Part shown: in pieces, positions 509 through 29,444 of the stretch
Numbering within the stretch: the first letter of the stretch is position 1
How the letters are laid out: each line of letters begins with the position of its first letter
NCBI GenBank assembly: GCA_947623455.1
Contig: OX392532.1
Span: forward strand, 8,560,501 to 8,624,500
Reading direction: 5' to 3'
Length of the DNA stretch: 64,000 bases
From: Mimachlamys varia
Lineage: Eukaryota > Mollusca > Bivalvia > Pectinida > Pectinidae
The notes under the pieces: model-generated
Told to the model about the DNA's origin: nothing
What the model saw: the letters and a program-made list of their open reading frames with translations, nothing else
Databases searched by the model: none
Made by a program: the position numbers and the translations under genes

Positions 509-3500
509 GATCTTTACAGCGTTCTTGTTCGTCGCTATTGGAGTGTACATGATCGTAGACCTATATGAAGAGCCGGAGAGACTGATCCCCTTCGGAGGCC
601 TCATTCTGTTCCTGGTCCTCATGTTCGTCACGTCCAAGGCCCCGTCAAAGGTAACGTCACATCTACCACATGTTTCCGACCAATCTCCATGACAACGTCG
701 ATGTTTCACTCTGAGAAAAGAAACAAGACTTTTTGGCGAAATAATCCAAAGATACCGGATTTATATTTGTTTATCTGTAAATTTTAAATATCTTTAAAAG
801 TAATTGAGATGTATTTGCTTCAAAGCATCTGCATCCACAATAATGATTTTATTTCTATGTAGATGGCAAACATGCTCATACTTTTACGAACATGCACAAT
901 TGATTGTTTTCAGCATCTGATACTGTATAACGTGATATTTGACAGGTTCAGTGTACAATTGATTGTTTTCAGCATCTGATACTGTATAACGTGATATTTG
1001 ACAGGTTCAGTGTACAATTGATTGTTTTCAGCATCTGATACTGTATAACGTGATATTTGACAGGTTCAGTGTACAATTGATTGTTTTCAGCATCTGAGAC
1101 TGTATGACGTGATATTTGACAGGTCCAGTGTACAATTGATTGTTTTCAGCATCTGAGACTGTTTGACGTGATATTTGACAGGTTCAGTGTACAATTGATT
1201 GTTTTCAGCATCTGATACTGTATAACGTGATATTTGACAGGTTCAGTGTACAATTGATTGTTTTCAGCATCTGATACTGTATAACGTGATATTTGACAGG
1301 TTCAGTGTACAATTGATTGTTTTCAGCATCTGAGACTGTTTGACGTGATATTTGACAGGTCCACTGTACAATTGATTGTTTTCAGCATCTGAGACTGTAT
1401 GACGTGATATTTGACAGGTCCAGTGGCGAGCGGTGTTGTGGGGCCTGTTACTCCAGTTCCTGATGGGTATCGTGATACTTCGCTGGCCCCCTGGCTACAG
1501 GGTGTGTAAAATGATGGGAGACGCGGTGGCGAAGTTCCTTACATTCACCGACTACGGCTCCAAGTTTGTGTTTGGCGAGAAAAACTATACTATGCACGTC
1601 GTTGCGTTTAAGGTAGGAAGCTGACTAAATAAAACTATATGGGGTGAAATATGTATCAAGTTATCTTAAATAATGTCCACAAACCTCGCCTGTTAAATAA
1701 AGTCCATCATGTTTGTCCCTTCCATTCCAATCAGTTACTAATAAGCATCCCGCCTGGAAGTTCCCCTGTAACATAACTATTAGAAATCGTTCATGGTGCT
1801 AAGAGCGCATGGGTCGGCGTCATTTTGAAGTTTCCCCTTCCGCCTCAAATAACAGGAGACAATCATTAGAACAAACATTTTGGTGACGTTAGGCTGTTCC
1901 AGAAATATCGTTTGCTCGTGACGATCAAACACGTTTACTTAGGAAAAACCTTACATATCTATAATAACGACAATTAAGAATTTAAATAAAAAGATTGTAC
2001 GCCATTTTTCAATGCTAATGATGTTATGCTTATGTACAAAATAATGCCGCGTATTTGTTTTTGTTTTTGCTTTTCCCCAATCACCTCAGTGATTTTCTGT
2101 CTCCACTATTCACTGTGTTGTATGACAACATCCGTTTCCTGTCTCCACTTATCACTGTGTTGCATGACATCATCCGTTTCCTGTCTCCACTTATCACTGT
2201 GTTGTATGACAACATCCGTTTCCTGTCTCCACTTATCACTGTGTTGTATGACAACATCCGTTTCCTGTCTCCACAGATCCTGCCGGTGGTGATATACTTC
2301 AGTGCCGTGGTTTCTATCTTGTATTACTGGGGGGTGATGCAAATCGTCATTAAGGGGCTGGCCAAACTCTTCCAGTACACCATGAAAACCACGGCCATCG
2401 AATCCTTCGCTACCGCGGCACATATATTCATAGGACAGGTAAGAATTGACGAGACTTATCAACAGGGAACAATAAATCGGACTGGTAGTATCTACGGTGG
2501 CTACACACTCTGTAAGACTGACCTCTGTATAACAGATAGTATCTACCATGGCTACACACTTTGTAAGACTGACCTCTATATAACAGATAGTATCTACCAT
2601 GGCTACACACTAAAATGTAAGACTGACCTCTGTATAACAGATAGTATCTACCATGGCTACACACTTTGTAAGACTGACCCCTATATAACAGATAGTATCT
2701 ACGGTGGCTACACACTTTGTAAGACTGACCTCTGCATAACAGATAGTATCTACCGTGGCTACACACTTTGTAAGACTGACCTCTATATAACAGATAGTAT
2801 CTACGGTGGCTACACACTTTGTAAGACTGACCTCTGTATAACTAGGTATCTACTATGGCTACACACTTTGTAAGACTGACCTCTGTATAACTAGGTATCT
2901 ACCGTGGCTACATACTTTGTAAGACTGACCTCTGTAGAACAGGGACCTGAGAATTTGTTTCAGCTAGTTTTGGACCTAAAATAGAGTGTTTAGAGTAATG
3001 TTTATCGAAAATTGATCTTAACCCCCCAAATGTGTAAAATTACTCTAAACACCCTATTTTAGGTCCAAAACTAGCTGTAACAAATTCTCAGGTCCCTGTG
3101 CTTTGTATAACAGGTAGTATCTACCGTGGCTCTAAAGCCGTTCCTCCGTGACCTCACGCTGTCGGAGCTCAACGCCGTGATGACGTCAGGGTTTGCTACT
3201 GTGGCGGGAACAGTGATCGCCGCCTACATCGAGTTTGGGGTACGTATCACACAGAAAGTCTGTTCAATTAAAGTGGCAAAATTCGCCTGATCGCATTATA
3301 TCGGCTAATAAATGGTGGGTGCACGTGATCATAAGAACCGTGTGGAATTGACTGTTGTTATTAGCATTTTAGTTAGATTGAAATAATCGAACAGGAAACT
3401 TGTAATAATTATTACAATCAATTTTAATGTTAATTTTGTTTAACCACTCATATGACACAAACACATTAGCTTTGGCATTTTCGAAGTTCAGGTTCCAGCC

Positions 3501-6500
3501 GAGCACGTGATCACTGCGTCATTCATGTCAGCACCAGCTGCATTAGCAGTGAGTAAACTCAACTGGCCGGAAACGGAAGTACCGAAAGGAGACGAGAAGG
3601 ATGTCTACGTCAGACTGAATGTTGGGTAAGGGTTGAAGGTCTCACAAAAATCGTAAACATTCGTATTTATAAGTAAAATATATTGTCTAAGGTGCATTAC
3701 AACCCAAACAAATTAAACTGGCTGGGGAGCAAGGAAATCAGTCATTGGGAAGAACTCATGTCGTTCTTATATCAATACTTCTGATAAGTTAAATATATGA
3801 AATATCCACTTATTGAACCACAGGCACTAGCTTCGTCTGACAAACACCTATAATATAAACAAGCAGTGTGTTCCATTTAGCGGAACGTTCCGGTGGTTCC
3901 AGAACGAACCAGACGTTCCGCTATATGGAACACGACGTTCCGCCGGAACGAACCTGTTCGTCTGGAACGTCTCATTTGAGGGTACCAAGTTGAAATTTGA
4001 CAGTTTTCTGCTGTTTCGTGACCTCTACAGAAAATTTTACGGCATGATACATGGTAAATGATATACCAAATTAAAGAGAAATTATTTCTCTGTCGATCAA
4101 GACCACTCCAAGTGAGATATCTTAAAGGGTTACGTCAAAATCACATGTTTCCCATAATTAGGTCGTGTCGCCGGCCGATGGAGTTCATAACCTTGTTTAT
4201 ATTATAGGTGTTTGACAGACGAGGCTAGTGCCTGTGATTTAACGTCTATTATGAAAACATATATTCAGACTTGATCGAGCATGTGTCCCAATACTCATTT
4301 GTCCGATCATAGAATTCAAACACTGGCTGTTTTGGTGAAAGGCGAACGTTGTCCACTACGCCCTCTGACCGTCTTAGTTCTTTTTAATACGATGAATGAT
4401 TTGTTAAAGCGGCAGAAATATGGCAAAGCTTCTTAAAAACGTGTTTCCTAATCTGTACAGGAACGAGCATAACGTAATGGAGGCGGCCTCAGCAGGAGCT
4501 CTGACGGCCATCAAACTCATCTCCTATGTCACCGTCAACCTCATCGCCTTCATCTCACTGCTGGCCTTCCTCGACTACTTCTTGTCCTTCATGGGATCAC
4601 GTGTCGGTCACCCAGAGGTCACGTTCCAGGTAAACAATAAAGCAATACCCCGGGGGGACAGAAGATGTTTTTGTTGTCTTGTTTGTTGTTCTATAAGTTG
4701 ATGTTACATTACTGTGACAGTAGATGTCAGACAACGCTTGAGGAATTTGAGATTAAAACGCCGCAGAAACTGTATAATAAGTTCTCAAACTAACGTCTCA
4801 AAACAAGAGGCCTATATGGCCTTAACGGTCACACGACTAATTTCAACTAAGTTAAAGATCTTATTGAGATATTTAATATCTATGCTCACAAGGTCAATGA
4901 TAAGAAAACTGCAAATAGCCATAACGCTGCCAATTACGATCAAATCGGCCCCATTTGCGAACTCGTCCTATTAATTAATATAAGGAGGCATACGACGTGT
5001 CTTCGAATTCATCTTTACTCAAGGTCATAAAAATGCAAAAGGGTCATAACTGTTGTCCATTACTTATATATTGACATTTTGATAGAATTATTGTGCTTTA
5101 TTTAGTTATTTCGTACCGATTTTAAATAGCAAATCAAGTGGAGACAGCAATAAAATTGCTGACGTCACAGTATCACCATAAGCGTATGGTGGCAATTGCC
5201 TCTAAGCATTGTGTCGAGGGGAAAATGCGGAGCAAATGTAAATATTATGTAGATGTTTGTTACAGTTTCTGTGTTCGTACATGTTCCTGTCTCTTACCTT
5301 TGTGATGAGTTTGTTTGATTTTATTACAGTTTCTTTGTTCGTACGCATTCATGCCCCTTGCCTTTTTGATGAGTTTGTTTGATTTTATTCCAGTTTCTTT
5401 GTTCGTACATGTTCTTGTCCCTTGCCTTGGTGATGAGTTTGTTTAACTGTGTTACAGTTTCTTTGTTCGTACGCATTCATGCCCCTTGCCTTGGTGATGG
5501 GAGTCCGATGGCAGGACTGTGGCAAGGTAGCCGAACTTATCGGAAAGAAAATATTCATCAACGAGTTTCTGTCCTTTGCCGATCTCGGTACAATGATCAA
5601 GAACGATGAAATCAACGTAAGTTGTGTACAATCTCAAGTTCATGTAGTGTTATTTTCCGGTAGTACATATTTGAGTCGGACGTCTTAAGTCCGGAAGGTA
5701 AAAAGTCGCCAATAAATGCAAAAAGACAACAATTTTAGTATTTGTTTGCTAATAAGTCATTTAACAACCGAATCTTTTACTGTTAGACTTTTCGAACGAT
5801 GTCATCTGAAACTGAAGAATAGGTTTGCAAGATCACTTTGACGTATGTCTTCTTCTACATTCTTTAGAAACAAGATGTTTTACTTGTAGAAGACCCATTG
5901 GTGATGCCTGCATGTACTAAAGCTCTATTGCTCTGCAAGGCAGACGATGATAAAAACAAATACCATTTTAATAATTTATAAAAGGTGGATTTTCCCAAGA
6001 GAAACCTCGTAGTGCACCTGTTAACATTCCGGCAGTGGTTGTCATGAATCATAATGATTTTAATAGGAACGTTCCGTTGTGATCGCTACCTACATCCTGT
6101 GTGGATTCGGCAGTATAGCTGCCATGGGGATCAACCTTGGTGCGTTTACCGCCGCAGACCCTAGCAGACGACAGGACTACGCAAAGGGCATGCTCAGGGC
6201 CATGGTTGGCGGGAATGTCGCGTGCTTTATGACGGCATGCGTGGCAGGTGAGATACTGTTGCCAATCATTTAGCTATACTCCCTTCAGTTTAACAGTTTA
6301 ACGTGTCAATTCAAAGATCAGTATATCTGTATCAAACGCATGCAAATATGCATTCGTATTTGACGTCTTTTGAAGCCGTTAACGTGAAAATTAATCTTTT
6401 CCAGGAATACTATATCAAGGGAGTGCGATAGAGAACTTAAACGTTACTATGACGACAGCCTTGAATTCCACGGCCATGAACGGTACACTAGTAACCAACA

Positions 6501-6589
6501 TCCCAGTGTTCAACAGTTCATCCTTATTTAATAGCTCCTCAGTGTTGACTAATTCGTCCTTAAGTAATATGGTTAATGGTACATTATGA
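509..6589 (+). CDS. SLC28: Concentrative nucleoside transporter (SLC28/CNT family), 3' nine exons
   Basis: Sodium- or proton-coupled nucleoside importer family of the plasma membrane. Exons: 509 (or 520)-650, 1418-1612, 2277-2438, 3114-3239, 3492-3625, 4461-4629, 5458-5616, 6067-6247, 6405-6589; all junctions are GT-AG and reading phase is kept throughout. Diagnostic segments in order: [110 protein letters not shown] and [16 protein letters not shown]. The C-terminal tail has about seven N-X-S/T sites, fitting the extracellular tail of the family. Odd: the usual GQTESP motif reads GQ-VVSTVAL at the start of exon 4, and the usual GVEWQD reads GVRWQD, so two substrate-contact glutamates are missing. 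The N-terminus is outside the window. Which vertebrate SLC28 member it matches cannot be set by eye. Confidence 0.93.
901..1431 (+). repeat. 59-bp minisatellite (9 copies) spanning SLC28 exon 2 acceptor
   Basis: Copies start at 901, 960, 1019, 1078, 1137, 1196, 1255, 1314 and 1373, exactly 59 bp apart. The unit holds the intron 3' end (GATATTTGACAG) and about eight exon bases (GTCCAGTG). The last copy runs into the real exon at 1418. All upstream copies keep the AG, so there are eight decoy acceptors. Confidence 0.95.
2093..2276 (+). repeat. 42-bp minisatellite at SLC28 exon 3 acceptor
   Basis: Just over four copies of a unit containing TTTCCTGTCTCCAC, ending exactly at the exon 3 boundary. 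In the last copy the motif continues CAG|ATCCTG. In the upstream copies the AG is TT (CCACTTATC), so these decoys are disabled. Confidence 0.92.
2479..2940 (+). repeat. 51-bp minisatellite upstream of SLC28 exon 4
   Basis: About nine copies of a 51-bp (17-codon) unit containing ACAGATAGTATCTACC, GGCTACACAC and TGTAAGACTGACC. A terminal partial copy resumes after the inserted element at 2941-3097 and forms the acceptor and first seven codons of exon 4. Because 51 is a multiple of three, the array is open in the exon 3 frame down to 2873. Confidence 0.92.
2941..3097. mobile_element. Short fold-back MITE, AGGGACCTGAGA family
   Basis: Nearly perfect inverted repeats of about 70 bp, starting AGGGACCTGAGAATTTG and ending CAAATTCTCAGGTCCCT around a small loop. 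It is inserted in the last copy of the 51-bp array, 16 bp before the exon 4 acceptor. A longer relative lies at 38975-39608. No clear target duplication was seen. Non-autonomous, no coding capacity. Confidence 0.9.
3820..4235. mobile_element. Fold-back element with ~50-bp inverted ends in SLC28 intron
   Basis: Left end ACAGGCACTAGCTTCGTCTG is mirrored at the right end by CAGACGAGGCTAGTGCCTGT; the arms continue through ACACCTATAATATAAAC and its complement. The interior has short GGAACGTTCCG-like palindromes. The terminus ACAGGCACT is shared with the element at 11064-11458. No coding sequence. Confidence 0.85.
5060..5250 (+). repeat. Dispersed ~190-bp repeat, copy 1
   Basis: Matches 9366-9580 over most of its length: both contain TTTTGATAGAATTATTGTG, CCGATTTTAAA, CAGCAATAAA/CAATGAAA blocks, a GACGTCAC and GGGAAAATGC-GAGCAAATG. 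It lies in the SLC28 intron before exon 7. Class unknown. Confidence 0.75.
5260..5457 (+). repeat. 64-bp tandem duplication of SLC28 exon 7 acceptor and exon start
   Basis: Exon-like starts lie at 5266, 5330, 5394 and the real one at 5458, exactly 64 bp apart. Every copy has a polypyrimidine tract, TTACAG or TTCCAG, and about 45 bp of exon-like sequence (TTTCTTTGTTCGTAC then GATGAG or GATGGG). Using an upstream copy would shift the frame (64 = 21 codons + 1). Confidence 0.93.
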
Positions 6590-7530: not shown

Positions 7531-7674
7531 ACTGGTTTGAAGTTTTAACCTGTTTGGTGCTCTTCACATAACATCCGGTGGTTTTACAAATCAGTATTAT
7601 TTTTAATTTACATATTAAGCTTTAAACATTATTTTCATAAAGAACTGAGCACAAATGACAATTCTTAAATGTCA

Positions 7675-13759: not shown

Positions 13760-13990
13760 TGCTACACATTCACAGACCTGCGCTTCCAGATTCACACATT
13801 CACAGCGCTGTGTTTCCAGATTCACAGCGCTGCATTTCCAGATTCACACATTTGCAGTGCTTCGTTTCCAGATTCACAGCGCTGCAGTTCCAGATTCACA
13901 CTTTCGCAGACCTGCGTTTCCAGATTCACACATTCACAGTGCTTCGTTTCCAGATTCACACATTCGCAGTCCTTCGTTTCCAGATTCACA
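13760..13990 (-). repeat. 30-bp minisatellite running through the LRWD1 stop codon
   Basis: Units of 30 bp (some 21-bp deletions) read on the gene strand as GTGTGAATCTGGAAACGAAG plus a short tail. The first copy is the coding sequence for the last residues (VCIWKRSTANV); the stop TGA (13986-13988) falls at the start of the next copy. Confidence 0.92.
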
Positions 13991-16900
13991 CATTAGCAGT
14001 GCTTCGTTTCCAGATACACACAAGGTTGTTATCTGTCCCACACACCATGTAGTTCCTACTGTGGTTCACAGCTATTGAGTTTATCACAACTCCCTGTAAA
14101 AAAAAAATTAACAGATATAAATCAGAACACAGGGGCCTTGAAAAAAAGTCTATTGTTAATAAAATCAGGTTCAAGAACACCTCGAGACATTAACACCTCC
14201 ATTTTTATCAACTGAACTTTACTTCTTTTGCAGGGCTTTTTCTGGGGTCTCTCAGGGGCCGATATACGGCCCCATTCCCAATAAGATTTGGGCTTCAATT
14301 TTCCCAATGTCAGGTTTTTTTCCCAATTCAATTAACTAAGCTAATTTCCACTTCTTTTATAAAAGTTTAGTGAAAATGTAGTAAGAAAAATGTGTGCACC
14401 ACCGCAAAAATATTAAGACAAAAAAAGATGTATTTCTTGCAGTTGAATATCATTTAAAAAAATATTGAACTATTTTTGCTATGTTGGTGATATTATAAAT
14501 ACATGCAGATGATTTTTCCCAATTTCACTCAGGGGCCTTTTCCTTATTCACCTTTAAAAAAGCCCTGTTTTGGTACTGTATTTGACCTGAAAAGTGCACC
14601 TGCCACTGTGATCACTCCACCTCACCTTCCCTCCCATCGTTTTTTCAGAGGAATAGGATGGGTGCCATAATTAAAACTTTAACAAAGTTCATTTTCCACT
14701 AATCTTCCAATGCAATCTTTAGTTTTATCAAAGACTGTCCAAGCCCAAGATTTTACATAGAAACATTCCCCCTGTATATGGTTCTTTTCAGTGCACCCTT
14801 TTTGTGTATCTGTGCACATTTTGCTTTAAACATTTGATTAGGTTGAACACGGTACATTGCAAAAAGGGAACATAGAAAAAAATGTGAAAATCCATCCCTG
14901 CACCATTACATACCTTCTCAGTGACCAAGTCCTTCATACTGTCTGTGTATCGGCCAAGAGTTATTTCTGGCCAATCCAAAACCTGGTCATAAACACATAA
15001 ATCATAATTTAATATCAAAGTCAATATATTCCAGTGTAAGGACATCTGATTAGTCTTCAGAGACTTTACAATATATGTGTTCTTACTGCTGTTTTATTAA
15101 CCACCTATTAAAGTGAAGATTCTGTTTAATTTGGTTTATATCTTTGGTCCAAGCCAAACTTCAACGTTTTCCTTTCCTACTATGATATTATGAGGTTTTG
15201 ACTTAAGAAGAGAGGCTAGATTGACTTTCTTCTTGAACTGAAAGAGGACTCACCCTTGATTGCTGAAGAACAGTGTCACATGACTTCGCCTTTTCTCCAA
15301 CAAGTTCCTCTAGATTGTACAGGTGAATGGATCCCTTGTCATCTCCAACGGCAACCAGACCTAAAACCGACAAATTGATGGTGAACACTCCCCAACGGTA
15401 ACCAGACCTAAAACTGACATATATTAATTGTGAATACTCCCCCATGATAACCAGACCTAAAACTGACATACATTGATGGTTAATACTCCCCCACGGCAAC
15501 AAAACCTAGAAACCGACACAGTGATGTGAATACTCTCCAAAGACAACCAGACCTAAAACCAACCAATATTGATGGTGAATACTCCCCCACGGCAACCAGA
15601 CCTAAAACCAACACACATTGATGGTGAATACTCCCCCACGACAACCAGACCTAAAACCTACACATATTGATTGTAAATACTCCCCCACACCAACCAAACC
15701 TAAAACCGACACACAGTGATCGTGAATACTCCCCCACATCAACCAGACCTAAAACCAACACACATTGATGGTGAATACTCCCCAACATCAACCAGACCTA
15801 AAACCAACACACATTGATGGTGAATACTCCCCCATGGCAACCAGACCTAAAACCGACACACAGTGATGGTGAATACTCCCCCACGGCAACCAGACCTAAA
15901 ACCAACACATATTGATGGTGAATACTCCCCAACATCAACCTGACCTAAAACCAACACAAACTGATGATGAATATTCCACAATGGCAACACACATGACTAC
16001 AAAATGTGAAAAACAGGTGCCATTAGTTAAATATCCTTATAAAAGTTAGTGAGATACAACATTCCTCAGAACTGACAAGAACAAGAGATCTACAAATAAA
16101 GTATTGTTCACTTGTTATAAAATAAGTTATTATGGCAATAAGAATTTCTTACAAATCTAGTCAAGACAAGTATTACCCATTAACTTTATTTCACTATTAG
16201 GTCTTTGAATGAACCTCAGGAAGGAACACCTACACTTTATTTCCATCTTGTCCCTTGTTTTCCATCTAGCCTTTCCTGAACATAGAAGTTTATTTATCTG
16301 AATCTGACTAAGCTAAGATCATTACCTTGAGAGGCGGCCAGGTAGATGTAATCTACTGTAGTACGTGTATAATTCAGGAGAGCTGTTGGGGTGACTTTCA
16401 CGCTGCGAGTTCGTCTGCCCTGCAGTTTCTTAGGAATGGAGGACTTGAGGTCAAACATGGTTAGACAGCTATTTCCAACACACTTTGTCACTGTTAAAGG
16501 AAAATTAAACACAAACATGATCAGACAGCTGTTTCTTACACACTTTGTCATTGTTAAAGTGGAAATTAAACACAAACATGATCAGACAGCTGTTTCTTAC
16601 ACACTTTGTCACTGTTAAAGTAGAAATTAAACACAAACATGATCAGACAGCTGTTTCTTACACACTTTGTCACTGTTAAAGTAGAAATTAAACACAAACA
16701 TGATCAGACAGCTGTTTCCAACACACTTTGTCACTGTTAAAGTGGAAATTAAACACAAACATGATCAGACAGTTGTTTCTTACACAAGGCTTTGTCACTG
16801 TTAAAGTAGAAATTAAACACAAAACATGATCAGACAGCTGTTTCCAACACACTTTGTCACTGTTAAAGTGGAAATTAAACACAAACATGATCAAACAGTT

Positions 16901-19900
16901 GTTTCTTACACACTTTGTCACTGTTAAAGGGAAATATCTAAGTTAAATCTAAATGTTAATATAATGCTTAATGGTGATCAAAATATGTCTCAGACAGAAA
17001 ACACAGAAATCTTCGACCAAGTTCAAGGTACATTACAACATCAGGCAGATTCTAAGTACAAATAGCTATATAGGGAATCAATTCACTCTCTCAAACTCCT
17101 TTAACTTCTATCTTCTTTCTTTCATCAATACTTTTGCTCCTTTCTTTCAATATTTTTTCTTTTCTTGCTAGCCTAAAACATGTTCTACTTGTAAATATTT
17201 TATACAATTATGGTCAGCCAGAGATTATTAATGTTTGTTAATTATTACTTGAAGGAGATGGCCTAAAATAAGACTATATGTCTTGTCGTCAGATCCTTCT
17301 AACTATGTATTTGTATTTATTAATGTATATGTATTTCTGTAAATAAAAATACTGTTTAAATCAATACTTCTGTTCAATCTGTACTGTCCCAGCCTGTAAC
17401 ACAGATACAGTCTCCATCACTATTGGTAAAATGAGACGGGGGGTGGGTGGGTGGGTGGGTTAAAGATATTTACTGTCCTACATACCAACATAGTTGTCAG
17501 AAAGAAGGACAAGCCCATCAACAATGTCACCGCAGTTACTGTCATTGCTGGAGTCATCACTCTTATCATCTGTTATTGGCAGCGACAACTCCAGGTCCGG
17601 TTCCCTGATAAACAAAGTAGAACATCTAAATATACAGTACTGTATCTACTCCAGATGTATAACATATATAAAATATACAGTACTGTATCTACTCCAGATA
17701 TATAACATATATAAAATATACAGTACTGTATCTACTCCAGATGTATAACATATATAAAATATACAGTACTGTATCTACTCCAGATATATAACATATATAA
17801 AATATACAGTACTGTATCTACTCCAGATATATAACATATATAAAATATACAGTACTGTATCTACTCCAGAAGTATAACATATATAAAATATACAGTACTG
17901 TATCTACTCCAGATATATAACATATATAAAATATACAGTACTGTATCTACTCCAGAAGTATAACATATATAAAATATACAGTACTGTATCTACTCCAGAT
18001 ATAAAACATATATAAAATACACAGTACTGTATCTACTCCAGATATATAACATATATAAAATATACAGTACTGTATCTACTCCAGATATATAGCATATATA
18101 AAATATACAGTACTGTATCTACTCCAGATGTATAACATATATAAAATATACAGTACTGTATCTACTCCAGATATATAACATATATAAAATATACAGTACT
18201 GTATCTACTCCAGATGTATAACATATATAAAATACACAGTACTGTATCTACTCCAGATATATAACATATATAAAATATACAGTACTGTATCTACTCCAGA
18301 TGTATAACATATATAAAATACACAGTACTGTATCTACTCCAGATATATAACATATATAAAATATACAGTACTGTATCTACTCCAGATATATAACATATAT
18401 AAAATATACAGTACTGTATCTACTCCAGATGTATAACATATATAAAATATACAGTACTGTATCTACTCCAGATGTATAACATATATAAAATACACAGTAC
18501 TGTATCTACTCCAGATGTATAACATATATAAAATACACAGTACTGTATCTACTCCAGATGTATAACATATATAAAATATACAGTACTGTATCTACTCCAG
18601 ATGTATAACATATATAAAATATACAGTACTGTATCTACTCCAGATATATAACATATATAAAATATACAGTACTGTATCTACTCCAGATATATAGCATATA
18701 TAAAATATACAGTACTGTATCTACTCCAGATGTATAACATATATAAAATACACAGTACTGTATCTACTCCAGATATATAACATATATAAAATATACAGTA
18801 CTGTATCTACTCCAGATATATAACATATATAAAATATACAGTACTGTATCTACTCCAGATGTATAACATATATAAAATATACAGTACTGTATCTACTCCA
18901 GATGTATAACATATATAAAATATACAGTACTGTATCTACTCCAGATGTATAACATATATAAAATATACAGTACTGTATCTACTCCAGATGTATAACATAT
19001 ATAAAATATACAGTACTCTATCTACTCCAGATGTATAACATATATAAAATATACAGTACTGTATCTACTCCAGATGTATAACATATATAAAATATACAGT
19101 ACTGTATCTACTCCAGATATATAACATATATAAAATATACAGTACTGTATCTGCTCCAGATGTATAACATATATAAAATATACAGTACTGTATCTGCTCC
19201 AGATGTATAACATATATGAAATATACAGTACTGTATCTGCTCCAGATATATAACATATAAAATATACAGTACTGTATCTGCTCCAGATATATAACATATA
19301 AAATATACAGTACTGTATCTACTCCAGATATATAACATATATAAAAGATATTTGTTTTACAGAAACATTCTCTATTCACTAAACTTACAGTTAAAACATG
19401 CCAACAACCTACTGCTAAATGGGAAAAAATTTCATTAAGTTCTTGAGAGTATTCAAAAAGGGCGCGGGGGGGGGGGGGGGGGGGGGTGAATAGTGAATAG
19501 TGAACTTTTGGAGATCCTGCAAGACTTCTTTAGCTTAAAGATTATATTGGCCACCATTTTATTTATGAGTCACGTGACTCTACTTTAAAAGTCATGTGAC
19601 TCTGTGAATTGTACACTCTATCTCACACATATAGTACATAGACAAAACAAGTTTTAATGTACCTGGTAAGTGCTCCACGGAACTAATAAACAACTTGTCA
19701 TTTATCCCAATTCCTGGAAGATGATCGACTCCAATAGGACAGAGAAGTTTGCTCAGTGGTGAGTGTAAAGAATTAATCCCATGCGTAATATAAGTGACTT
19801 ACAGTGATATATGATGTTAAAAGACTGTTGGACTTCTAATATTAAAGTTGATGAGATAAGTGTATTACCAACATTTTATACAAACACACAAAGATAGAAA

Positions 19901-22900
19901 GGCTTTAAGGAAACCTGCCCCATTGTATCATGTAACATACAGTAACTACAATCTGTTATTTTGTTTTAATATGGAGTGACTTTAGCCTTGTAATAATTGG
20001 GTTATTGTTAGACCATTGTTCCTTCTTTAGTTAGATATGGATGTTTTTTTGCTGTTTTCACCTTTCTGAACATGAATTTTCCCCCATTTTCATAAAAACT
20101 TTGCAAGGTAAATCCTTTTTTTCTCCAGAAATGCATAAGTTGTAGCCAGTGTTCTGATTATTAAGTTCCACTTACTTGCTGAGTTTGCCCATGTCTTTGA
20201 GCTTCCATAAGTAGCAGGTACTCTCACAGCCTGCTAGTAAAGTGTTTGTACTCAGGCTAATGGCCATGTTTAGTGGGTCAGTACCCGGGGTAACCAGACA
20301 CTGCAGCTTCCTACAACATAACAGGTCGTCACATCATATATCAACTTTATTTATTTTACAACAATATTATAGAACAAGTTATTCAGCTTATATTAATCAC
20401 TTGTATTGTATAGACAGTTAAAATACTTCAATGTCAATTTTTTTTATGGAGAATGAAATCAGGCTGAGAAGTAAGTATTGCTCTTACGTAACAGCTTGGT
20501 TTGTTTGTACTGACCTGAAGTTTGTTGAGTAGTCGGACAGGTCCGGTATTCCGATGTCCCACATTATAATTCTGTTGTCTTTTCCACCACCTGTTGATTA
20601 TAAATACCCTCAACACTGAACAACACCCTTATATAAAATCAATGTTGTCTTTTCAGTGTCATTTCGTTTAGATTTCACTTTAAGATTTCTGGCTCCAGTA
20701 AAACGTATTGTCCGTAACATGAGGGCTGTAAGCTTGAAAGTCATATGATAAGAGAAGTGTATCGCAAGGGTTGAAACAATTTATTTTTTAAAACTTTTTT
20801 TTATTTCATTTAAAGCAATTTATACAATAAACAAAATGACACTGGAAAAAAGGAACATATTTACAGACACTTACCTAAACCTATCACCATGACTAAACAT
20901 CAACCATAACAATTTGATATGTATCATGATACCTGGGTCACAATACAATATCAATCATGGCACTTGTCACACATTTCGTTACAAACCTGTAACTGCAGGT
21001 TTCTTTGCTTTAAAAACAACCCTTGACATAAACCAAATCAAAAGTGCTAATTATATCTGTTTAACTGAGTTATGATGAAATAGGTCATGTAATCCAAAAT
21101 TATTTCCTAACATAAAACAGCAGTAATTGGCCCTAACTTTTACCAGTACGTTGATACACTAGATACTGTTCATCAAAGCATTGGTAAATTGTTACGTACA
21201 ATGTACAATACACAGAAAATATGCTAAGGCGTCTGAAAATAACACTACTATGGAAGTATAGATATGGAGACATGTTCTTGGGGATATTAGTATTAAGAAG
21301 TGTAGTTTTGACTTAAGATTGTCAGAGAATAACTGACTTCTAAACAGGAACTTAAAAATAATATAGTTTATATATTTTTTGAAAGTATTTTCAATCTTTG
21401 TCATATTAAAATATTTCATATAGCTATATATGGATAATCCATTAATAAACAAGGCCTAAGGGCCAGGTTTTTAAGGTAGAAGTCTTAAATGCTCTATAAC
21501 TAATACAGTCAAACTTCGATATCTCAAAGTCGACGGATTAGAGGAAAACTTTGAGCTATCAAAGTATTCGAGTGACATGAGTTTAAATATTATTGGGATG
21601 CTTGGCAGGACTGAAAATACTTGGAATTGAAGGAGTCTTCAAATTACACGAGTTTGAGATACCAGGGTTTGACTGTAATTGATAACAATAATTTACACAC
21701 ATTAGGAAGCACACTTAAAGCTATTTCAGATGTCAGAGAACTTATTGGGAACTTCAGTCCAATTATAAAATCAAATTGGTATCAATTACAGAATTTGTTA
21801 AATCCTTGATAATTCCATAATAATGCAAATATCCGTAAAACTGAACTATTCTTTATCATAGCTTGACTTGTGTAGACAGACTTACTGAACAGGATGGTAG
21901 GGTAGGAAGGGTGGAAGGCGAGGCAGCTGATGTAGCGTCGGTGACCCTCCAGTGTAGCGTACATAACTAGCTGGGAGGGATGGATCAGTTTCACATCACA
22001 TGCGTCCCCCGCGACCGCGAGGATGTTGGTTGTCTCTGTAGAGTTGTCTTTGTCCATGTGGATCGTAGTCCAGGCCAAAGTGTAGAAGGACTGAGAGAAA
22101 AATAGGATTCCAGTTTTTACACATAACACAACAACATAATAGATGTTCCATGTTTCAACAAACACAAGTAATATAACAGGGATGGGGCTGGGAAGATCAC
22201 ACTGTTAACTAGAATTTAAAGTATTATGTTAGCTAGACATTAAAATTGAATCTGCTTGTTACAGTAGCAAACATAAATACTGACCTTTTCAGTTTAAAAA
22301 GCTGTTACTGTCGTCTACTCATTCATTTTAATAATTAGTTATAAAACTGCCGCTTTATATTCGGCTATCTAACACATGTTGTTATGATGAATGATACTCT
22401 ATATAAATTGGAATACCATAGAGATTTATATTACAAATTCCTCTTTGATAAGTGTATTATGGCTATTGAATTAGAAATGTTTATAGTCAGGTTGACTTTC
22501 TGATGCTGTATCATTGTACCAAAACAAAGTGGAAGGGTAACACAAACAGGACTAATTGTCATGATAGTAGAACCTCTACTTGTGTTTATCTCTTCCTACC
22601 TCTTTTTTGTCTGTATCCTTGAACCTCCTCATGACCTTGCCGGTCTGACAGTCGACCAAACAAACGATCTTCCCGCCAACTGTAGCTACTACATTGGTGT
22701 GCTCATCTATAAACAAACCACAGTATAATTACAGTATAATTACAGTATAACTACAGTATAACTACAGTATAATTACAGTATAATTACTACAGTATAACTA
22801 CAGTATAATTACAGTATAACTACAGTATAACTACAGTATAACTACAGTATAATTACAGTATAACTACAGTATAATTACAGTATAACTACAGTATAACTAC

Positions 22901-24445
22901 AGTATAGCTTAATTACGTATAACTCAATTACAGTATAATTACAGTATCACTACAGTATAATTACAGTATAACTTAATTACAGTATAATTACAGTATTACT
23001 ACAGTATAATTACAGTATCACTACAGTATAATTACAGTATAACTTAATTACAGTATAATTACTGTCCTAATGAGACTTTTATAAAACAAACCATAGTATA
23101 ATTACAGTCCTAACGAGACTTCTATAAAACAAACCACAGTATAATTACAGTTCTAATGAGACTTTTACTGAAGGTTACACCTAAATTTCTTAGATCGGAT
23201 CCCAAGTTGTGCTTTAATTGTACGGTCAGTAAATATTTTACTAAAAGAGTGAAGAATATGCCTCCTTTTGTCTACACTTGGTGGTCAAATGGAAGCAGTT
23301 GATTTCTTCTTTATAACAAATATGAAAACACTTATAAAATACTTTTAATGACCCAGGCAATTTAAGTTACCATATTTTTTATCTCATATGCCTGGAGTGC
23401 ATTCAGCATATGGGTACAGAAATATAGTTTGTCTAAAAGCTGGCAAGCTAGCCATGCTAGTTTTTATGCTTTTCTATCTAATATTGGAACACACATATCA
23501 ATCACTTAAGTAAGTTTTTTATCCAACCTTAGCTCTGGTTGTACAATAATATTTCACAATCAAACACAATTATATTAATATTGAAGATGAATCGCTGTTA
23601 AATGATATAAGTCATTGTTCACTATACTGTAGATATGTTTGAGGACTTTTCACTATACTGTAGATATGTTTGAGGACTTTTCACTATACTGTAGATATGT
23701 TTGAGGACTTTTCACTATACTGTATACTACACTATACTGTAGATATGTTTGACGACTTTTCATTATTATGTAGATATGTTTGAGGACTTTTCACTATACT
23801 GTAGATATGTTTGAGGACTTTTCACTATACTGTAGATATGTTTGAGGACTTTTCACTATACTGTAGATATGTTTGAGGACTTTTCACTATACTGTAGATA
23901 TGTTTGAGGACTTTTCACTATACTGTTGATATGTTTGAGGACTTTTCACTATACTGTAGATATGTTTGAGGACTTTTCACTATACTGTAGATATGTTTGA
24001 GGACTTTTCACTATACTGTATACTACACTATACTGTAGATATGTTTGAGGACTTTTCACTATACTGTAGATATGTTTGAGGACTTTTCACTATACTGTAG
24101 ATATGTTTGAGGATTTTTCACTATACTGTATACTACACTATACTGTAGATATGTTTGAGGACTTTTCACTATACTGTATACTACACTATACTGTAGATAT
24201 GTTTGAGGACTTTTCACTATACTGTATACTACACTATACTGTAGATATGTTTGACGACTTTTCATTATTATGTAGATATGTTTGAGGACTTTTCACTACA
24301 CTGTAGATATGTTTGAGGACTTACCTGGGTTGTTAGGTTTAGGTTCAAATGCACATCGCCACACCTTAGTGTTGTCATCAGACGGACTATCCTCGTCAGA
24401 GTGGCATCGTACAAAGTAGGTCGGATCGTAGTCTGGAACAGGTGC
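13986..24445 (-). CDS. LRWD1: LRWD1 exons 6-16: WD40 propeller
   Basis: Starts APVPDYDPTYFVRCHSDEDS and runs through VATVGGKIVCLVDCQTGKVM, LIHPSQLVMYATLEGHRRYI (exon 8, a GH element), GGKDNRIIMWDIGIPDLSDY (exon 9, WD), LAGCESTCYLWKLKDMG, CGDIVDGLVLLSDNY, VAVGDDKGSIHLYNLEE (exon 14) and VCGTDNNLVCIWKRS. Order and sequence follow vertebrate LRWD1, where this half contacts ORC and methylated histones. Confidence 0.9.
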
Positions 24446-27400
24446 CTGTTATAGAACACAGAGTATAACCCTCCATCAATCAACAAAAACGTAGTTCAAG
24501 TACAGGCAATCATCAAAACAGCCAATCAACTAACAACAATCATCAAAACAGCCAATCAACTAACATCAATCATCAAAACAGCTAATCAACTAACAACCAT
24601 CATCAAAATAGCATATCAACTAACATCAATCATCAAAACAGCTAATCAACTAACAACAATCATCAAAACAGCTAATCAACTAACAACAATCATCAAAACA
24701 GCCAATCAACTAACATCAATCATCAAAACAGCTAATCAACTAACAACAATCATCAAAACAGCCAATCAACTAACAACAATCATCAAAACAGCTAATCAAC
24801 TGACAACAATCATCAAAACAGCTAATCAACTAACAACAATCATCAAAACAGCCAATCAACTAACATCAATCATCAAAACAGCCAATCAACTAACAACCAT
24901 CATCAAAATAGCCAATCAACCAACATCAATCTACAAAACAGCCAATCAACTGACAACAATCTACAAAACAGCTAATCAACTAACAACAATCATCAAAACA
25001 GCTAATCAACTAACAACAATCATCAAAACAGCCAATCAACTAACAACAATCATCAAAACAGCTAATCAACTAACAACAATCATCAAAACAGCCAATCAAC
25101 TAACAACAATCATCAAAACAGCCAGTCAACTAACAACAATCATCAAAACAGCCAGTCAACTAACAACAATCTACAATTCAAAACATTAACTCAACCAATC
25201 AGCTTCCATCTACAAAACAACAAATAACTTACAAAAAAACCTTTTCTTAGCAGTAATAACGCATGCTCCATTACTTACAACAGAAAATCTTTGTCTGGAT
25301 TATTTGATAGAAAATACGTTCAATGAATTTTTACTTTTATCTATGTTTGCAATAACATCACTGAATCTGACATCAGTTCATTATGCTTGTTATAACATAA
25401 AACTTCAGGGTTTTCAGTAAGAATTGACACTGTTAAAATACACTGAACTTTTGGACTGTATATTTGATTACAAATTGCCATATAAGACATCCTGTTAACT
25501 ATAACAGTTAAGCTACTCACCAGTTGATCTACATGTGGGTCCTTTAGGGCTGTGTACTGTGGAGATGTCAGTTGACCTGTCTCTGTTCTGTATGATTTGG
25601 CCTTGGGTTTACATTCTGACTCTGGGGTAGATGATCGTCTGCGTTTCTTGCCTTTGTTTTGAGTTTTGGTTACAGTTGCTGGTGACTTTGGGCTGAACTT
25701 TGGAGATGCTATTTTTCCAGTTTCTGTTCTGTAAGATTTAGAACTTGGTTTTGAGGCTGACCCTGGACTGGAATTTCTTCGTCGCTTCTGGCCCCTTCCT
25801 TCTTTTTTTGGTGTTCTCTCCGAGTCTTGTGTGCTAGCTGCTTCTCCGTGTTTAGGTGTGGGTGGTTTGTCTGTTGGCGTGTCGATCAGCCTTCGGTTGG
25901 GTACAGGGGTGCGTGAGCTATGTCGGACGGGTGTTGTCTCTGGAGACTGGAGGTCGTTGAGACGAGCACTGCGGGGAGTCCCAGGAAGGGACTGGGTGGA
26001 GTTGTATATAGACAAGTTCTTGGCTGACTGGACCATCTCTTTGGCAAGTTTCTCCAGCTAGGGGACAAAGTTTATCATACAGTCTTTACACCTCATTAAT
26101 AAGCATGATTATTGGTATTTGCAACAATCTTTAAAAATGATTGTCAACAAGTGATATGGAGTAATTTTACAAATTATATAAATGAGACTTTAGAAGGCAA
26201 GTTCAAAACTAGATTTGTCAGTATGACATGAATTCCCTCACCAACCAGCAAAGATAAAAGTTTTCCAAATTTTCATGGGTTTTAGTCAAGACTCTCCAAT
26301 ATTGTTCATACCAATAATACCATACAATTATGTACATATATTTTTGTTATGTTCTAAAATAACAACAATTACTAGTGTAATAGTCTGTAATAGTCAATGC
26401 TTCATTTCGTTTTTTGAAACATTCTTTATTTATTTTTTTTCAGATTGACCAAATGCTAGATTCTTAAATGAACTGGTATAAGCAAGTCCTTTAAACAAGA
26501 GAATTCATTAACTAAAAGGCAAAAAGTGAGTCTAGATATTTTTCAAATTACAAAAGCTGCAGGTCTTTACATTACCCAAGTGTCTCACCATATACTTTTC
26601 ACATTTGGAATTAGCATTTTTGAAGAGAGGATCTTTCTTTAGACTGTCCAGGAATTCTTCCGTCACTTGGTCCACCACGTCGTCAGGGATACCAGTGGCG
26701 TATGGCTCCGCAAATAACACCTCCCACTTGGCCTTTACCTGTCAATCAAGTTCAATATCTGGGTCACATTCTGACTTTTGTATTACTTAGTGTAGGTAAT
26801 ACAATATTGTAGTCTACTACTAATGTCATGTCTTTTAACACTTTAGGATCCTCGTTTCATATATGTCATATTTTCATAATACTTACTTTTTGTTTACAAG
26901 GATTTACACATTGAGAAAAATACAATGTCATATATAACCTGTTAAAGGTCTATTAGCTCATTAAGGAAACCTAGAAGGTAGGAAGTAATTTCATTTCAGT
27001 TAAGCATACCCTTTAAATGATCAAACTATAAACTTTTTATGAGTATTGCTGTTGAGTTATTTATACCAACGGTGTTGAGTGAAATGGTCAGAGAAAGGAG
27101 ATCCATTTTGCTTCGTTAGCACATCTGCCTCAAGAAAAACATTTCTTTGCTTGTTACAAATGTAGTTCATCATGAAATTTCAGGGGGTGAGTTGGGAAAC
27201 ACTAAGGGGACAGAATGAAGATCTCCCCTGTATATCAAACTCGCTACGTATCTGTCTGACAGAATGAAGATCTCACCTGTATATCAAACTCGCTACATAT
27301 CTGTCTGACAGAATAAAGATCTCACCTGTATATGAAACTTGCTACATATCTGTCTGACAAAATGAAGAAGCAAAGTTTCTACATATCAGTCTGAGAGATT

Positions 27401-29444
27401 GAAGAACTCACCTGTATATCAAACTCGCTACGTATCTGTCTGACAGAATGAAGATCTCACCTGTATATCAAACTCGCTACGTATCTGTCTGACAGAATGA
27501 AGATCTCACCTGTATATCAAACTCGCTACATATCAGTCTGAGAGATTGAAGAACTCACCTGTATATCAAACTTGCTGCGTAACTGTCTGACAACCTGTTG
27601 AAGTGAGCTGGCCTTCTGGTCATCTAACTGGGTCAGATTAGGGTTCTCTACTATGGCTATCAGACGGTCAGCTTTCTACACGAAACATATAAGTTTAATT
27701 AATGTTGTGTGTTGGTTACTTTTGTTTTGTTGTATCACTGTGACAGCATAATTATTTTACATCTTATTTTATTACAAACTTGGCATACATGTATCAGATT
27801 ATAGTACTGCTTTCTTTTTTATTAGCAAATTATGCAATAAAAAGAAATCTGTCAATCATATGTACAGTAGTTTATATTTTTAAATGTCACTTGGGGTCTC
27901 ATTTTCATAATAACGATAAAAGTAATGGCTAATATAAATAGAAATATACAGATTGGGAAAAAGAATATGAAAATAGTGAAAAATAATATATTTATGATTA
28001 GGAATTTTCTGATAGGAAACCTAATTTCATGTTCTATAAGATCAGTGTCTATGTTATGAAGTGACTACTTACCCCTATATCATGGTTGCCAGCAATGTAT
28101 AGAGAGGTCAGTTTTGGAAAGTTCCGTACAAAAGAGAGGGAGCTCATGGAGTTGTCTGAAATATCCAAGGTGGTCAGTGATGGAAGAAAAATGTCAGCAG
28201 AGATACTGCTGATGTTGTTATTGGACAGGTCAAGACTCTTCAAGGTCGCTAGCTGGTTCATGACCTTTGGATCCAATGTGGTAAGGTTCTTGTCAGAGAG
28301 GCTACAAACAAACGTGATCGTCTAATAGGAAAGGCAACTATATAAACATAACGTTGTATGATACATATCTCAAGGCATCATATATTATTTAAAATGGACA
28401 CACTATAGCAAAGGGAGGTACCGTAAAAACTTGTGTAATCTACGCACCAGAGTAATTTGCGCAATAGTAATGGAAATTTCCATTCAAAAAGGCATCACAT
28501 GACACGATATTCCCATGAAAACCAAAGAATTTACTACAAAAGTTACTCACTTAGAACGAAATGGCGACTTTCGATTTTGATACGAGTTCCTGCGAATTTG
28601 ATGACATTTTGAAATATTTACTGCTAAAGATGTTGCAAGAGCAATTGAAATGGCTGCAGAATTACGTGAAGAAAAGCAAGGAACTTAATTGGACATGCCT
28701 TTAGTGATATTTCGTCTGGAATTGAAAACGAAAGTACCCGTATGTCAAATCAAAGTGATGACGAGATGAAACTTTTACCATGGTCGGAATATTTATCAAT
28801 ACCTGATTTTTCCTAAACTATTAGATAAACTATGGTCTTGGATGACCACAAGAGTGAAATAGAATGCCTGTATTTGCGTTCTATGTTTTGTTTACCTAAT
28901 TGGGCTTATAATTACTTGTCAAATAAACGTTGTATGCCGAGCGGCACTCTCAACTCTGGTCTGGTCCAAATAGTAGAGACGTTTCTAGTTGTTATGGTTT
29001 TTTTTCATCATTTTTGTGTCTGAATTAATTATGAAATGTGCTGCAGATGTCAACATCAACACTATCTAGACTTTTAAGGAAGTCAAACTTTTCTACATTT
29101 AAAAAAAAACAACAAAAAAACAATCAAAATCTTGATAAGTACATAAATCAGTTTGTCTTCAATACAGCATTTTATATACTCCTCCTCCCTCTAGGTCTTC
29201 TGTTACATTATTTAACAAAATTCTTTAATTTTTAACATTAATATTATGTAAAAACACACATTGCTAAGCCCGCCATCTAGAAAATAAAAAGTATGTTTAC
29301 TCAAGAATCAAACTGTCCTGAATCTAACTTTCATACAGTGTATTCCACTTTACTAATCCGTACTCACTCAAGACTTTTAATTTTGGACAGTGCTAGTCCA
29401 TTTCCTGCCTTCCTTATCACAGATTCTGAGAGCGACATTGTAAC
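13986..29444 (-). CDS. LRWD1: Leucine-rich repeat and WD repeat-containing protein 1 (ORC-associated, ORCA)
   Basis: Nuclear protein that binds the origin recognition complex and repressive chromatin. Coding exons 5' to 3': 29444-29368 (ATG 29438), 28301-28073, 27675-27559, 26738-26589, 26057-25521, 24445-24325, 22706-22600, 22090-21886, 20590-20515, 20310-20176, 19751-19663, 17569-17486, 16490-16326, 15360-15254, 14982-14914, 14093-13986. Phases agree at every junction and give 789 codons (human 647). Order: LRRs, basic linker, WD40 repeats, ending CGTDNNLVCIWKRSTANV. The starts of exons 11 and 12 are the least certain; they were chosen to keep phase and avoid stops. Exon 1 begins after an acceptor (TTACAG), so an upstream untranslated exon is expected. 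Nearly every intron carries a minisatellite. Confidence 0.93.
14231..14567. mobile_element. Fold-back element CAGGGCTTTTT...AAAAAGCCCTG
   Basis: Terminal inverted repeats CAGGGCTTTTT / AAAAAGCCCTG in the last LRWD1 intron, flanked by direct TTTTG on both sides. Inner CAGGGGCC motifs are also repeated. CAGGG termini resemble hAT-type MITEs, but the flank repeat is only 5 bp. Confidence 0.7.
15361..15965 (-). repeat. 49-bp minisatellite spanning LRWD1 exon 14 acceptor
   Basis: About 12 copies. Read on the gene strand the unit is CACCATCAATGTGTGTTGG, TTTTAG, then GTCTGGTTGCCGTGGGG: intron end, AG, and about 16 bases of exon 14 (GTCTGGTTGCCGTTGG). Almost all copies keep TTTTAG|GTCTGG, so there are about a dozen decoy acceptors. 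Confidence 0.94.
16491..16940 (-). repeat. 61-bp minisatellite spanning LRWD1 exon 13 acceptor
   Basis: About seven extra copies beyond the real boundary. On the gene strand each reads ACTTTAACAG|TGACAAAGTGTGT followed by AGAAACAGCTGTCTGATCATG, so it includes about 40 bases matching the exon start (TGACAAAGTGTGTTGGAAAT...). At least one copy has AG changed to AA. Confidence 0.94.
17438..17460 (+). other. G-quadruplex-forming tract
   Basis: Five G-runs of three or more separated by single T (GGGTGGGTGGGTGGG pattern), a strong intramolecular G4 motif on the + strand. It lies about 26 bp past the donor of LRWD1 exon 12; the transcript carries the C-rich complement. Confidence 0.85.
17630..19345. 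repeat. 43-bp satellite-like array, ~40 copies, in LRWD1 intron
   Basis: The unit contains the palindrome ATACAGTACTGTAT, CTACTCCAGATGTATAAC and ATATATAAAAT. Copies differ mainly at a TGTATAAC/TATATAAC position and in TATACAG/CACACAG. The array starts close to the exon 12 acceptor and ends about 320 bp before exon 11. The last few copies near 19250 lack four bases. Confidence 0.95.
19465..19490 (+). repeat. Poly-G tract
   Basis: A run of about 20-26 G, followed by GAATAGTGAATAGTGAAC. The length is probably unreliable in the assembly. Confidence 0.8.
22720..23075. repeat. 11-bp repeat CAGTATAATTA / CAGTATAACTA
   Basis: More than 25 copies of an 11-bp unit, starting about 15 bp upstream of the LRWD1 exon 7 acceptor. 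Larger units CAGTATAACTTAATTA also recur. Confidence 0.9.
23620..24318. repeat. 31-bp minisatellite abutting LRWD1 exon 6 donor
   Basis: More than 20 copies of TTTTCACTATACTGTAGATA plus TGTTTGAGGAC, with intermittent TATACTACACTATACTG insertions. On the gene strand the array starts at intron position +3: the donor context GTAAGTCCTCAAAC becomes AAAAGTCCTCAAAC in every other copy, so the GT is lost in the copies. A block around 23735-23790 recurs at 24235-24290. Confidence 0.92.
24481..25175. repeat. 30-bp minisatellite in LRWD1 intron 5
   Basis: About 23 copies of AATCATCAAAACAGC(T/C)AATC AACTAACAAC. It begins about 35 bp upstream of the exon 6 acceptor. The units are directly adjacent, with no spacers. 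Confidence 0.95.
25521..26057 (-). CDS. LRWD1: LRWD1 exon 5: low-complexity basic linker with an internal duplication
   Basis: 179 codons between the LRR and WD40 halves, rich in Ser, Pro, Thr, Lys and Arg, with many SP/TP sites (SPETTPVR, DTPTDKPPTPK). A block of about 45 residues is present twice: GQKRRRNSSP...KSYRTETGKIASP and GKKRRRSSTP...KSYRTETGQLTSP. The KRRR clusters look like nuclear localisation signals. The corresponding region of vertebrate LRWD1 is also disordered but shorter. Confidence 0.9.
27190..27558 (-). repeat. ~50-bp minisatellite spanning LRWD1 exon 3 donor
   Basis: About seven copies downstream of the real donor. On the gene strand each reads GTCTGACAG-like exon sequence, GCGAGTTTGATATACAG|GTGAG, then ATCTTCATTC. 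The exon 3 end is GCAGCAAGTTTGATATACAG|GTGAG. Complete decoy donors are present in almost every copy; one stretch (about 27345-27400) is degenerate. Confidence 0.94.
27559..29444 (-). CDS. LRWD1: LRWD1 exons 1-3: leucine-rich repeat region
   Basis: Exon 1 ends in KIKSL plus two bases, exon 2 supplies the rest of the D codon, giving KIKSLDLSDKNLTTLDPKVM. LRR units follow: LKSLDLSNNNISSI, LTTLDISDNSMSSLSF, LTSLYIAGNHDIG. Exon 3 (KADRLIAIVENPNLTQL...) is a helical cap-like segment. The LxxLxLSxNxI pattern is typical of protein-protein LRRs and matches the N-terminus of vertebrate LRWD1. Confidence 0.9.
28416..28960 (+). other. Unassigned degenerate sequence with short frames in LRWD1 intron 1
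   Basis: Contains GGTACCGTAAAAACTTGTG-like lead sequence and broken frames starting MATFDFDTSSCEFDD (28561) and, in another frame, FTAKDVARAIEMAAELREE. Stops and frame changes interrupt it. It looks like a decayed transposon or processed fragment. I do not recognise the family. Confidence 0.35.

Follow-up and report, generated by a model that had tools for sequence, protein, structure and literature searches.

The DNA analysed here, called the window, is a stretch of 64,000 nucleotides from the scallop Mimachlamys varia (contig OX392532.1, positions 8,560,501 to 8,624,500), taken from an assembly of 975 Mb in 71 contigs. It contains two unrelated genes, SLC28 and LRWD1, whose introns hold minisatellite arrays lying on or next to splice junctions. 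Both genes were modelled exon by exon (Table 1). Their joined exons form open frames, GT and AG are present at every intron, and in alignments the predicted proteins are 91% (SLC28) and 90% (LRWD1) identical to their Mizuhopecten yessoensis counterparts. One earlier SLC28 exon lies upstream of the window, in locus L036, and the low end of LRWD1 exon 2 is at 28073. The LRWD1 acceptors at 15360 and 16490 belong to exons 13 and 12 in our numbering, which an earlier note on this DNA had counted as exons 14 and 13. The SLC28 family is large: matching exons occur at many positions of C12 and C9, in addition to two neighbours on C6.

Window arrays were called with Tandem Repeats Finder (TRF), and eleven of them were located in introns of the two genes. 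A real splice junction was found inside the repeated unit in six (five acceptors and one donor), and two end 2 bp short of the splice dinucleotide, at SLC28 exon 3 and at the LRWD1 exon 6 donor. The other three lie 13, 23, and 61 bp away from an acceptor, a spread that departs from the 15-40 bp given in the earlier note for these 11-, 43-, and 30-bp arrays. In all eleven, the exon is complete and the copies lie to its intron side. The earlier note had described units containing an exon boundary in both genes, and this was borne out for the acceptors of SLC28 exons 2, 4, and 7, the LRWD1 acceptors at 15360 and 16490, and the LRWD1 exon 3 donor. It was not borne out for SLC28 exon 3, which had also been listed as duplicated together with exon sequence; there the copies read ccacTT where the real site reads ccacAG, and no exon is duplicated. 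The array proposed to start at intron +3 of the LRWD1 exon 6 donor was found exactly so, with no junction copy in it.

Table 1. Genes and intronic tandem arrays of the window; positions are counted from its first letter.
Feature	Positions	Strand	Remarks
SLC28 (concentrative nucleoside transporter) gene	509..6589	+	9 exons in window, intact frame
59-bp array, 9 copies, SLC28 exon 2 acceptor (exon start 1418)	896..1425	+	8 bp of exon in unit; AG in 8/9 copies
42-bp array, 4.3 copies, ends 2 bp before SLC28 exon 3 (2277)	2093..2274	+	AG in 0/3 copies found
51-bp array, SLC28 exon 4 acceptor (exon start 3114)	2486..3135	+	AG in 6/6 copies found
64-bp array, 3.8 copies, SLC28 exon 7 acceptor (exon start 5458)	5256..5499	+	42 bp of exon in unit; AG in 3/3 copies
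LRWD1 gene	13986..29444	-	15 exons, from start codon exon to stop, intact frame
49-bp array, 12.9 copies, LRWD1 acceptor (exon 15254-15360)	15348..15977	-	AG in 11/11 copies found
61-bp array, 7.9 copies, LRWD1 acceptor (exon 16326-16490)	16452..16935	-	39 bp of exon in unit; AG in 6/8 copies
43-bp array, 40 copies, begins 23 bp upstream of LRWD1 acceptor (17604)	17628..19350	-	acceptor not included
11-bp array with 43-bp tail, begins 13 bp upstream of LRWD1 acceptor (22706)	22720..23167	-
31-bp array from intron +3 of LRWD1 exon 6 donor (24325)	23618..24322	-	junction copies found: 0
30-bp array, 22 copies, 61 bp upstream of LRWD1 acceptor (24445)	24507..25171	-	not anchored by the 10-bp rule
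49-bp array, 8 copies, LRWD1 exon 3 donor (27559)	27209..27592	-	34 bp of exon in unit; GT in 5/6 copies

The array at SLC28 exon 4 is interrupted. TRF gives it an extent of 2486-2942, and by eye it is followed by an inverted-repeat element at about 2943-3105 and then by a partial copy adjoining the exon. The element has ends like GGGACCTGAGA, and a longer copy with similar ends was seen by eye at 38984-39605. Exon 4 itself was suspected of having been overwritten by its own array, as its first residues lack the family motif TEAP; the closest scallop proteins, P0001-P0004, share the residues VVSTVAL found there, so the exon is normal. A further 30-bp array (13764-14022) starts in the last codons and the stop of LRWD1 (exon 13986-14093) and extends into the 3' untranslated region.

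The window had been chosen for its odd look, and a sample from outside it is therefore the fair test of placement. Outside loci were taken by gene family (myosin, SLC28 relatives, and one CCT gene), and their repeats were not inspected first. The myosin sample consisted of twenty 10-kb loci around myosin exons, which hold 56 of the 74 myosin hits; tblastn among the loci added 57 exon pieces to these 56 profile hits, and the edges of all 113 were refined to splice sites. Arrays in outside loci were called with a TRF score of at least 100 and a unit of at least 9, and an array was considered to touch an exon when it lay within 10 bp of its edge. The main position tests count only arrays between two known exons, which retained 39 of the 56 arrays of the myosin loci (two of the 17 left out, in L018 and at L028 273-1957, do contain a splice site) and 7 of the 8 in the SLC28 paralog loci L035-L039. 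A few entries were made manually: the split SLC28 exon 4 array was entered by eye as reaching 3135, the SLC28 paralogs had their exon edges trimmed by eye, and the exon edge and merged array (1232-1466) of L040, not touching at 10 bp, were entered by hand. In the null model used for these tests, a randomly placed unit may overlap an exon and each such overhang is counted as tolerated, which makes the model generous.

Our results indicate that array placement favours junctions both inside and outside the window. Ten of the eleven window arrays lie at most 60 bp from an exon, for which simulated uniform point insertion in introns gives a probability of 2e-5, and under the overhang null 8 of 11 touch an exon versus 3.0 expected (P=0.0007). 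Outside, 16 of 47 intronic arrays touch versus 7.3 expected (P=0.0003). The myosin loci contribute 12 of 39 (5.1 expected, P=0.001) and the SLC28 paralogs, which are related to the window gene and not fully independent of it, 4 of 7 (1.8 expected, P=0.04). When all 56 myosin-locus arrays were compared with the raw exon hits under random placement, 8 were within 10 bp of an edge versus 2.9 expected (P=0.005), 9 within 20 bp versus 3.2 (P=0.0012), and 10 within 40 bp versus 3.8 (P=0.0022). Both kinds of site are involved, with 12 donors and 4 acceptors among the touching arrays outside the window, and 2 donors and 6 acceptors within it.

To look beyond these loci, we searched the whole genome for three tandem copies of the consensus donor word CAGGTAAGT separated by gaps of 15-45 bp, using the same word read backwards as control. 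The search yielded 7,433 tandem triples versus 188 for the backwards word. As single words, the two occur 30,635 and 5,463 times, and the tandem rate per single copy is thus 24.3% versus 3.4%, an excess of about 7-fold. Inspection by eye of 100 of the 7,433 matches, located at C1:2.39-9.98 Mb, resolved them into 10 arrays with 10 different units, indicating that no single dispersed repeat makes the count in that region. Extrapolating from these 100 matches, at about 10 matches per array, would give about 740 such donor-word arrays genome-wide. The earlier note had proposed that arrays are anchored at junctions beyond chance, and had named a lack of enrichment over exon boundaries, or an assembly artefact, as counter-evidence. 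The excess in the window, in gene families fetched regardless of their repeats, and in the donor-word count agrees with the proposal, and in the part of the genome examined neither check went against it.

One alternative account of these data is chance combined with tolerance, in which minisatellites are so dense and introns so short that many units overlap a junction accidentally, with no preference for junctions. Several observations favour this account. TRF finds 64 arrays in the first 232.5 kb of gene loci sampled, 14.8% of that sequence, and for window and outside loci together the generous null by itself expects 10.3 of 58 arrays to touch an exon. Touching arrays resemble the others in median copy number (7.5 versus 5, p=0.97) and in match between copies (90% versus 91%, p=0.95), and differ in having longer units (50 versus 35 bp, p=0.013), which chance predicts, since a longer unit is more likely to extend to a junction. 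In the sampled loci, arrays on average cover exon edges no more than intron interiors; the idea that arrays raise coverage at exon edges was therefore dropped, and it is the array ends that cluster there instead. Against chance stand the 24 touching arrays observed among the 58, the excess that persists outside the window, and the 7-fold excess of donor-word triples per single copy, and the incomplete exon annotation of the sample would hide touching arrays. We consider chance with tolerance an unlikely explanation.

A second possibility is that junctions are mutational hot spots created by transcription or splicing, for example through polymerase pausing, R-loops, or template switching at exon edges. 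The junction excess in the myosin sample and overall, the involvement of both donors and acceptors, and the fact that units differ between genes (among those read), which leaves no shared seed sequence, are in favour of this idea. On the other hand, exon sequence makes up between 3% and 100% of the unit, a spread that does not depart significantly from uniform (Kolmogorov-Smirnov p=0.18, n=18, lengths entered by hand), which indicates that the breakpoints are not fixed. The suggestion of the earlier note that expansion is seeded at AG|GT found no support on these grounds and was dropped. In addition, longer persistence of arrays that hold a selected copy would give the same excess, and either a hot spot or longer persistence fits the range from two-fold in the position test to seven-fold in the word test. 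A mutational hot spot is a possible explanation that we hold tentatively. The broader proposal that scallop splice junctions are genome-wide hot spots of minisatellite birth, via a process coupled to transcription or splicing, is one to which we give somewhat less than even odds.

Some arrays outside the window carry large numbers of junction copies. The donor array of the myosin locus L028 contains 56 further donor copies, 53 of them with GT and 47 scoring at least as strong as the real site. GT is present in 56 of 63 donor copies at the myosin locus L021, in 30 of 30 at the myosin locus L026, and in 62 of 77 at the SLC28 paralog L039, and AG in 29 of 29 acceptor copies at L027. Some touching arrays merely abut a junction; in the L029 donor array, a copy of the donor site was searched for and none was found. 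The probes for L030, the L035 donor, and L038 were misplaced in this search, and their counts were not used.

In five myosin loci (L021, L026, L028, L030, and L032), donor arrays with different units stand at the donor of the exon encoding the ATP-binding loop GESGAGKT, which in L032 reads GAGKTETCK, and the intron position is apparently homologous among the five. Some other sampled myosins have no array at the donor of this exon, and because the exon was often the one found by the profile, a sampling bias is possible. At L030 (444-822), the 75-bp unit is mostly exon and stays open in frame through five copies; splicing from a later donor could make the protein longer.

The abundance of copies with intact splice dinucleotides raises the question of function, that is, whether tandem decoy sites regulate splicing kinetics or provide alternative 5' or 3' ends, as the earlier note had suggested. 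Divergence was measured in eleven hand-chosen junction arrays, with the real site among the copies and with only 4 copies for L026. Splice dinucleotides deviate from the array consensus at 33 of 604 bases (5.5%) and flanks at 265 of 4,228 (6.3%), so that decoys are neither purged nor preserved, a coarse conclusion given that copies within an array are not independent. The unit is a multiple of 3 in 10 of the 24 touching arrays and in 10 of the other 33, which gives no clear bias, and the idea of frame-keeping units was discarded. Read-through of the donor arrays L021, L026, L028, and L039 soon meets stops, and decoy use would often be harmful; the survival of intact decoy copies suggests that they are rarely chosen. 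No insertion at array junctions was seen in protein alignments of eight SLC28 relatives, nor across those of three of four LRWD1 orthologs; the proteins are thus explained by use of the site nearest the exon. Where copies are as strong as the real site, site strength cannot explain the choice, and position, rather than strength, probably decides which site is spliced. The exon structures of SLC28 and LRWD1 also explain their proteins without any added intron of the kind that tandem duplication of AGGT sequence would create.

A functional role for the decoys is nonetheless suggested by the many copies that keep GT or AG and score as high as the real site in several arrays (47 of 56 at L028), by the L030 unit that remains open, by an Argopecten LRWD1 model that ends at an array junction, and by the human IFI6 minisatellite, which is reported to supply used donors (cited in PMC4526556, in the part of the text consulted). 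The unremarkable conservation of the dinucleotides, the lack of frame bias, the stops met on read-through, and the proteins of the other orthologs without inserts all speak against it, as do the comparable arrays of amphioxus, described in the consulted part of the source as not disturbing splicing (PMC3087553). We found no evidence in the sequences that decoys regulate splicing, and a functional role appears very improbable.

Comparison with SLC28 paralogs provides a view of how the arrays originate. The paralog L035 aligns at SLC28 exon 7 as a single copy and has no TRF array there, against 3.8 copies in the window gene; judged from this alignment, birth of the array in place is visible here. 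The SLC28 exon 3 array, in turn, has a counterpart at the same junction of L035, 96% alike over 56 bp. The two genes are similar in patches, with 88-94% identity around exons 3, 4, 7, and 8 and 69-76% at exons 2, 5, and 6, and gene conversion may therefore have shared the exon 3 array between the paralogs; alternatively, the array is older than the duplication. These comparisons also bear on assembly artefact, that is, repeats collapsed or falsely expanded at exon edges. Tandem arrays are a well-known weak point of assemblies. Nevertheless, some two dozen arrays touch exons, their copies diverged and their units unlike one another, one array is split by an inserted element (SLC28 exon 4), the exon 3 array recurs at the same junction of a paralog, and the assembly is in few contigs. 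We regard this explanation as hardly credible.

Taken together, we interpret the arrays as mirage-type minisatellites: stretches of about 26-180 bp, spanning or abutting a real splice junction, recur in tandem to the intron side while the exons stay intact, and splicing likely uses the copy nearest the exon. We assign this reading a probability of about 0.72. It is built on direct observation of the arrays and their junction content, of intact frames in both window genes, and of the junction excess in the outside sample and in the genome-wide donor word. In our reading, minisatellites arise here in the ordinary way but with a preference for junctions, and they are tolerated because splicing likely favours the exon-nearest site. 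The process would begin with a high rate of minisatellite formation in M. varia, to which the array content of the sampled loci points. Founding duplications would then occur at junctions about twice as often as uniform intron placement gives, or, alternatively, junction arrays would last longer, with selection keeping the exon-side copy as a permanent seed. By the established principle of exon definition, sites near the exon body and its enhancers win. Junction duplications would be tolerated for this reason, with the site closest to the exon body favoured and the extra copies treated as intron, and the copies, thus near neutral, would expand and drift like those of other minisatellites.

Several points weigh against the mirage-type interpretation or limit its reach. 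The outside sample covers three gene families, one of them (the SLC28 paralogs) related to the window gene, and the one CCT gene adds one array, which is not touching. Outside exon edges are profile or tblastn hits refined with a 22-site matrix, and some are wrong, among them those behind the misplaced probes for L030, the L035 donor, and L038. The genome-wide search had one control word only, and its count does not place each array at the donor of a gene. The excess could be mutational or could come from persistence, and the data fit both. Decoys are poorly kept in some arrays, with 2 of 8 copies at the L029 acceptor, 5 of 8 at L024, and 0 of 3 at SLC28 exon 3, and the two window arrays that stop before the splice dinucleotide (24322-24325 and 2274-2277) would fit some selection against decoys. 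Which site is spliced is judged only from the proteins of other scallops, and the exon-nearest choice is likely on that basis. Finally, among the four LRWD1 orthologs the Argopecten model P0124 stops right after exon 12, at the exon 12/13 junction (16326 / 15360), which is the site of the 49-bp array in M. varia. This break may be a gene-model error or a sign of disturbed splicing. As a separate observation, the copies in the LRWD1 exon 6 donor and SLC28 exon 3 arrays are silent, and a pair of cases does not suffice to distinguish selection from chance.

Arrays of this kind are already known as mirages in amphioxus, where minisatellite-like tandem duplications span an exon-intron boundary in Adh3, the globins Gb6 and Gb9, troponin C, and PGBD5. 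The consulted parts of these sources describe duplications at either the 5' or the 3' boundary, many copies with splice signals, no splicing disturbance, and length and somatic instability (PMC3087553, PMC3902484). The scallop arrays are similar in that units span a real boundary, in six of eleven window arrays and in further outside loci, and in that both boundary types are affected. Regular splicing may also be undisturbed in the two window genes, whose frames are intact and whose ortholog proteins lack inserts, apart from the one truncated LRWD1 model. The scallop arrays differ in their mollusc host, in reaching up to 77 detected junction copies, and in having a measured excess and a genome-wide word count. 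A mollusc or scallop case of junction-copying minisatellites was not found in the open-licence literature, of which long result lists were covered in part. What is new is the occurrence in a mollusc, together with the measured excess and a frequency that makes the scale unexpectedly large.

In the human IFI6 (6-16) minisatellite, the unit is 12 bp. Its units are splice donors at the real exon end, and downstream units are reported to be used (Turri 1995, as cited in the consulted part of PMC4526556). That case concerns one locus with a short unit and used downstream donors, while the scallop protein alignments show no insert. In human segmental duplications, minisatellite expansion at exon-intron boundaries, with units of about 30 bp, is reported in the consulted text to alter exons and to be able to form new introns in recent paralogs (PMC2812944); the exons of the two scallop window genes are unaltered. 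The polyubiquitin gene UBC and VCX3A contain tandem dual-specific splice sites, with AGGT-containing units usable as donor or acceptor, according to the part of PMC10809524 consulted. The UBC repeats are coding and in frame, in contrast to the four scallop donor arrays that meet stops. Intron gain by tandem duplication has been described for potato RdRp, through a duplication across an exon-intron boundary (PMC4974935, consulted in part), whereas the scallop arrays lengthen existing introns and no new intron was shown. Work on C. elegans minisatellites and splicing, as far as the consulted part goes, concerns motifs in introns and not duplicated junctions (PMC4039745).

Other features of the window lie apart from these junctions. 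A 36-bp array (40992-43404) has 67 copies and a unit that is a multiple of 3, with a donor-like GTGAGA directly after it, and a 56-bp array (57593-63375), outside SLC28 and LRWD1, has 103 copies over 5.8 kb. An Rfam scan of the window yielded two matches, none on the arrays of SLC28 or LRWD1. One is the potassium channel RNA editing signal RF00485 (52957-53070, - strand, 70.5 bits), in an apparent Kv channel coding exon, and the other is a degenerate fragment matching eukaryotic small-subunit rRNA (37558-38089, - strand, 102.9 bits).

Our findings suggest that these arrays are likely natural tests of how the correct splice site is chosen and of how introns originate. If true, RNA reads by themselves would suffice to test rules of the type 'the site nearest the exon wins', across hundreds of genes where an exon end has to compete with many near-identical copies of its own splice site. 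The arrays would further supply abundant raw material for intron gain by tandem duplication, and the mutational fragility of exon edges could be examined with them. Should the genome-wide hot-spot reading be true, about 700 arrays of one perfect consensus donor word, and many more of other sites, would form the largest set of competing tandem splice sites in nature and a lasting source of new introns. If full annotation agrees, what has been an oddity of a few amphioxus genes would be a common feature of a mollusc genome.

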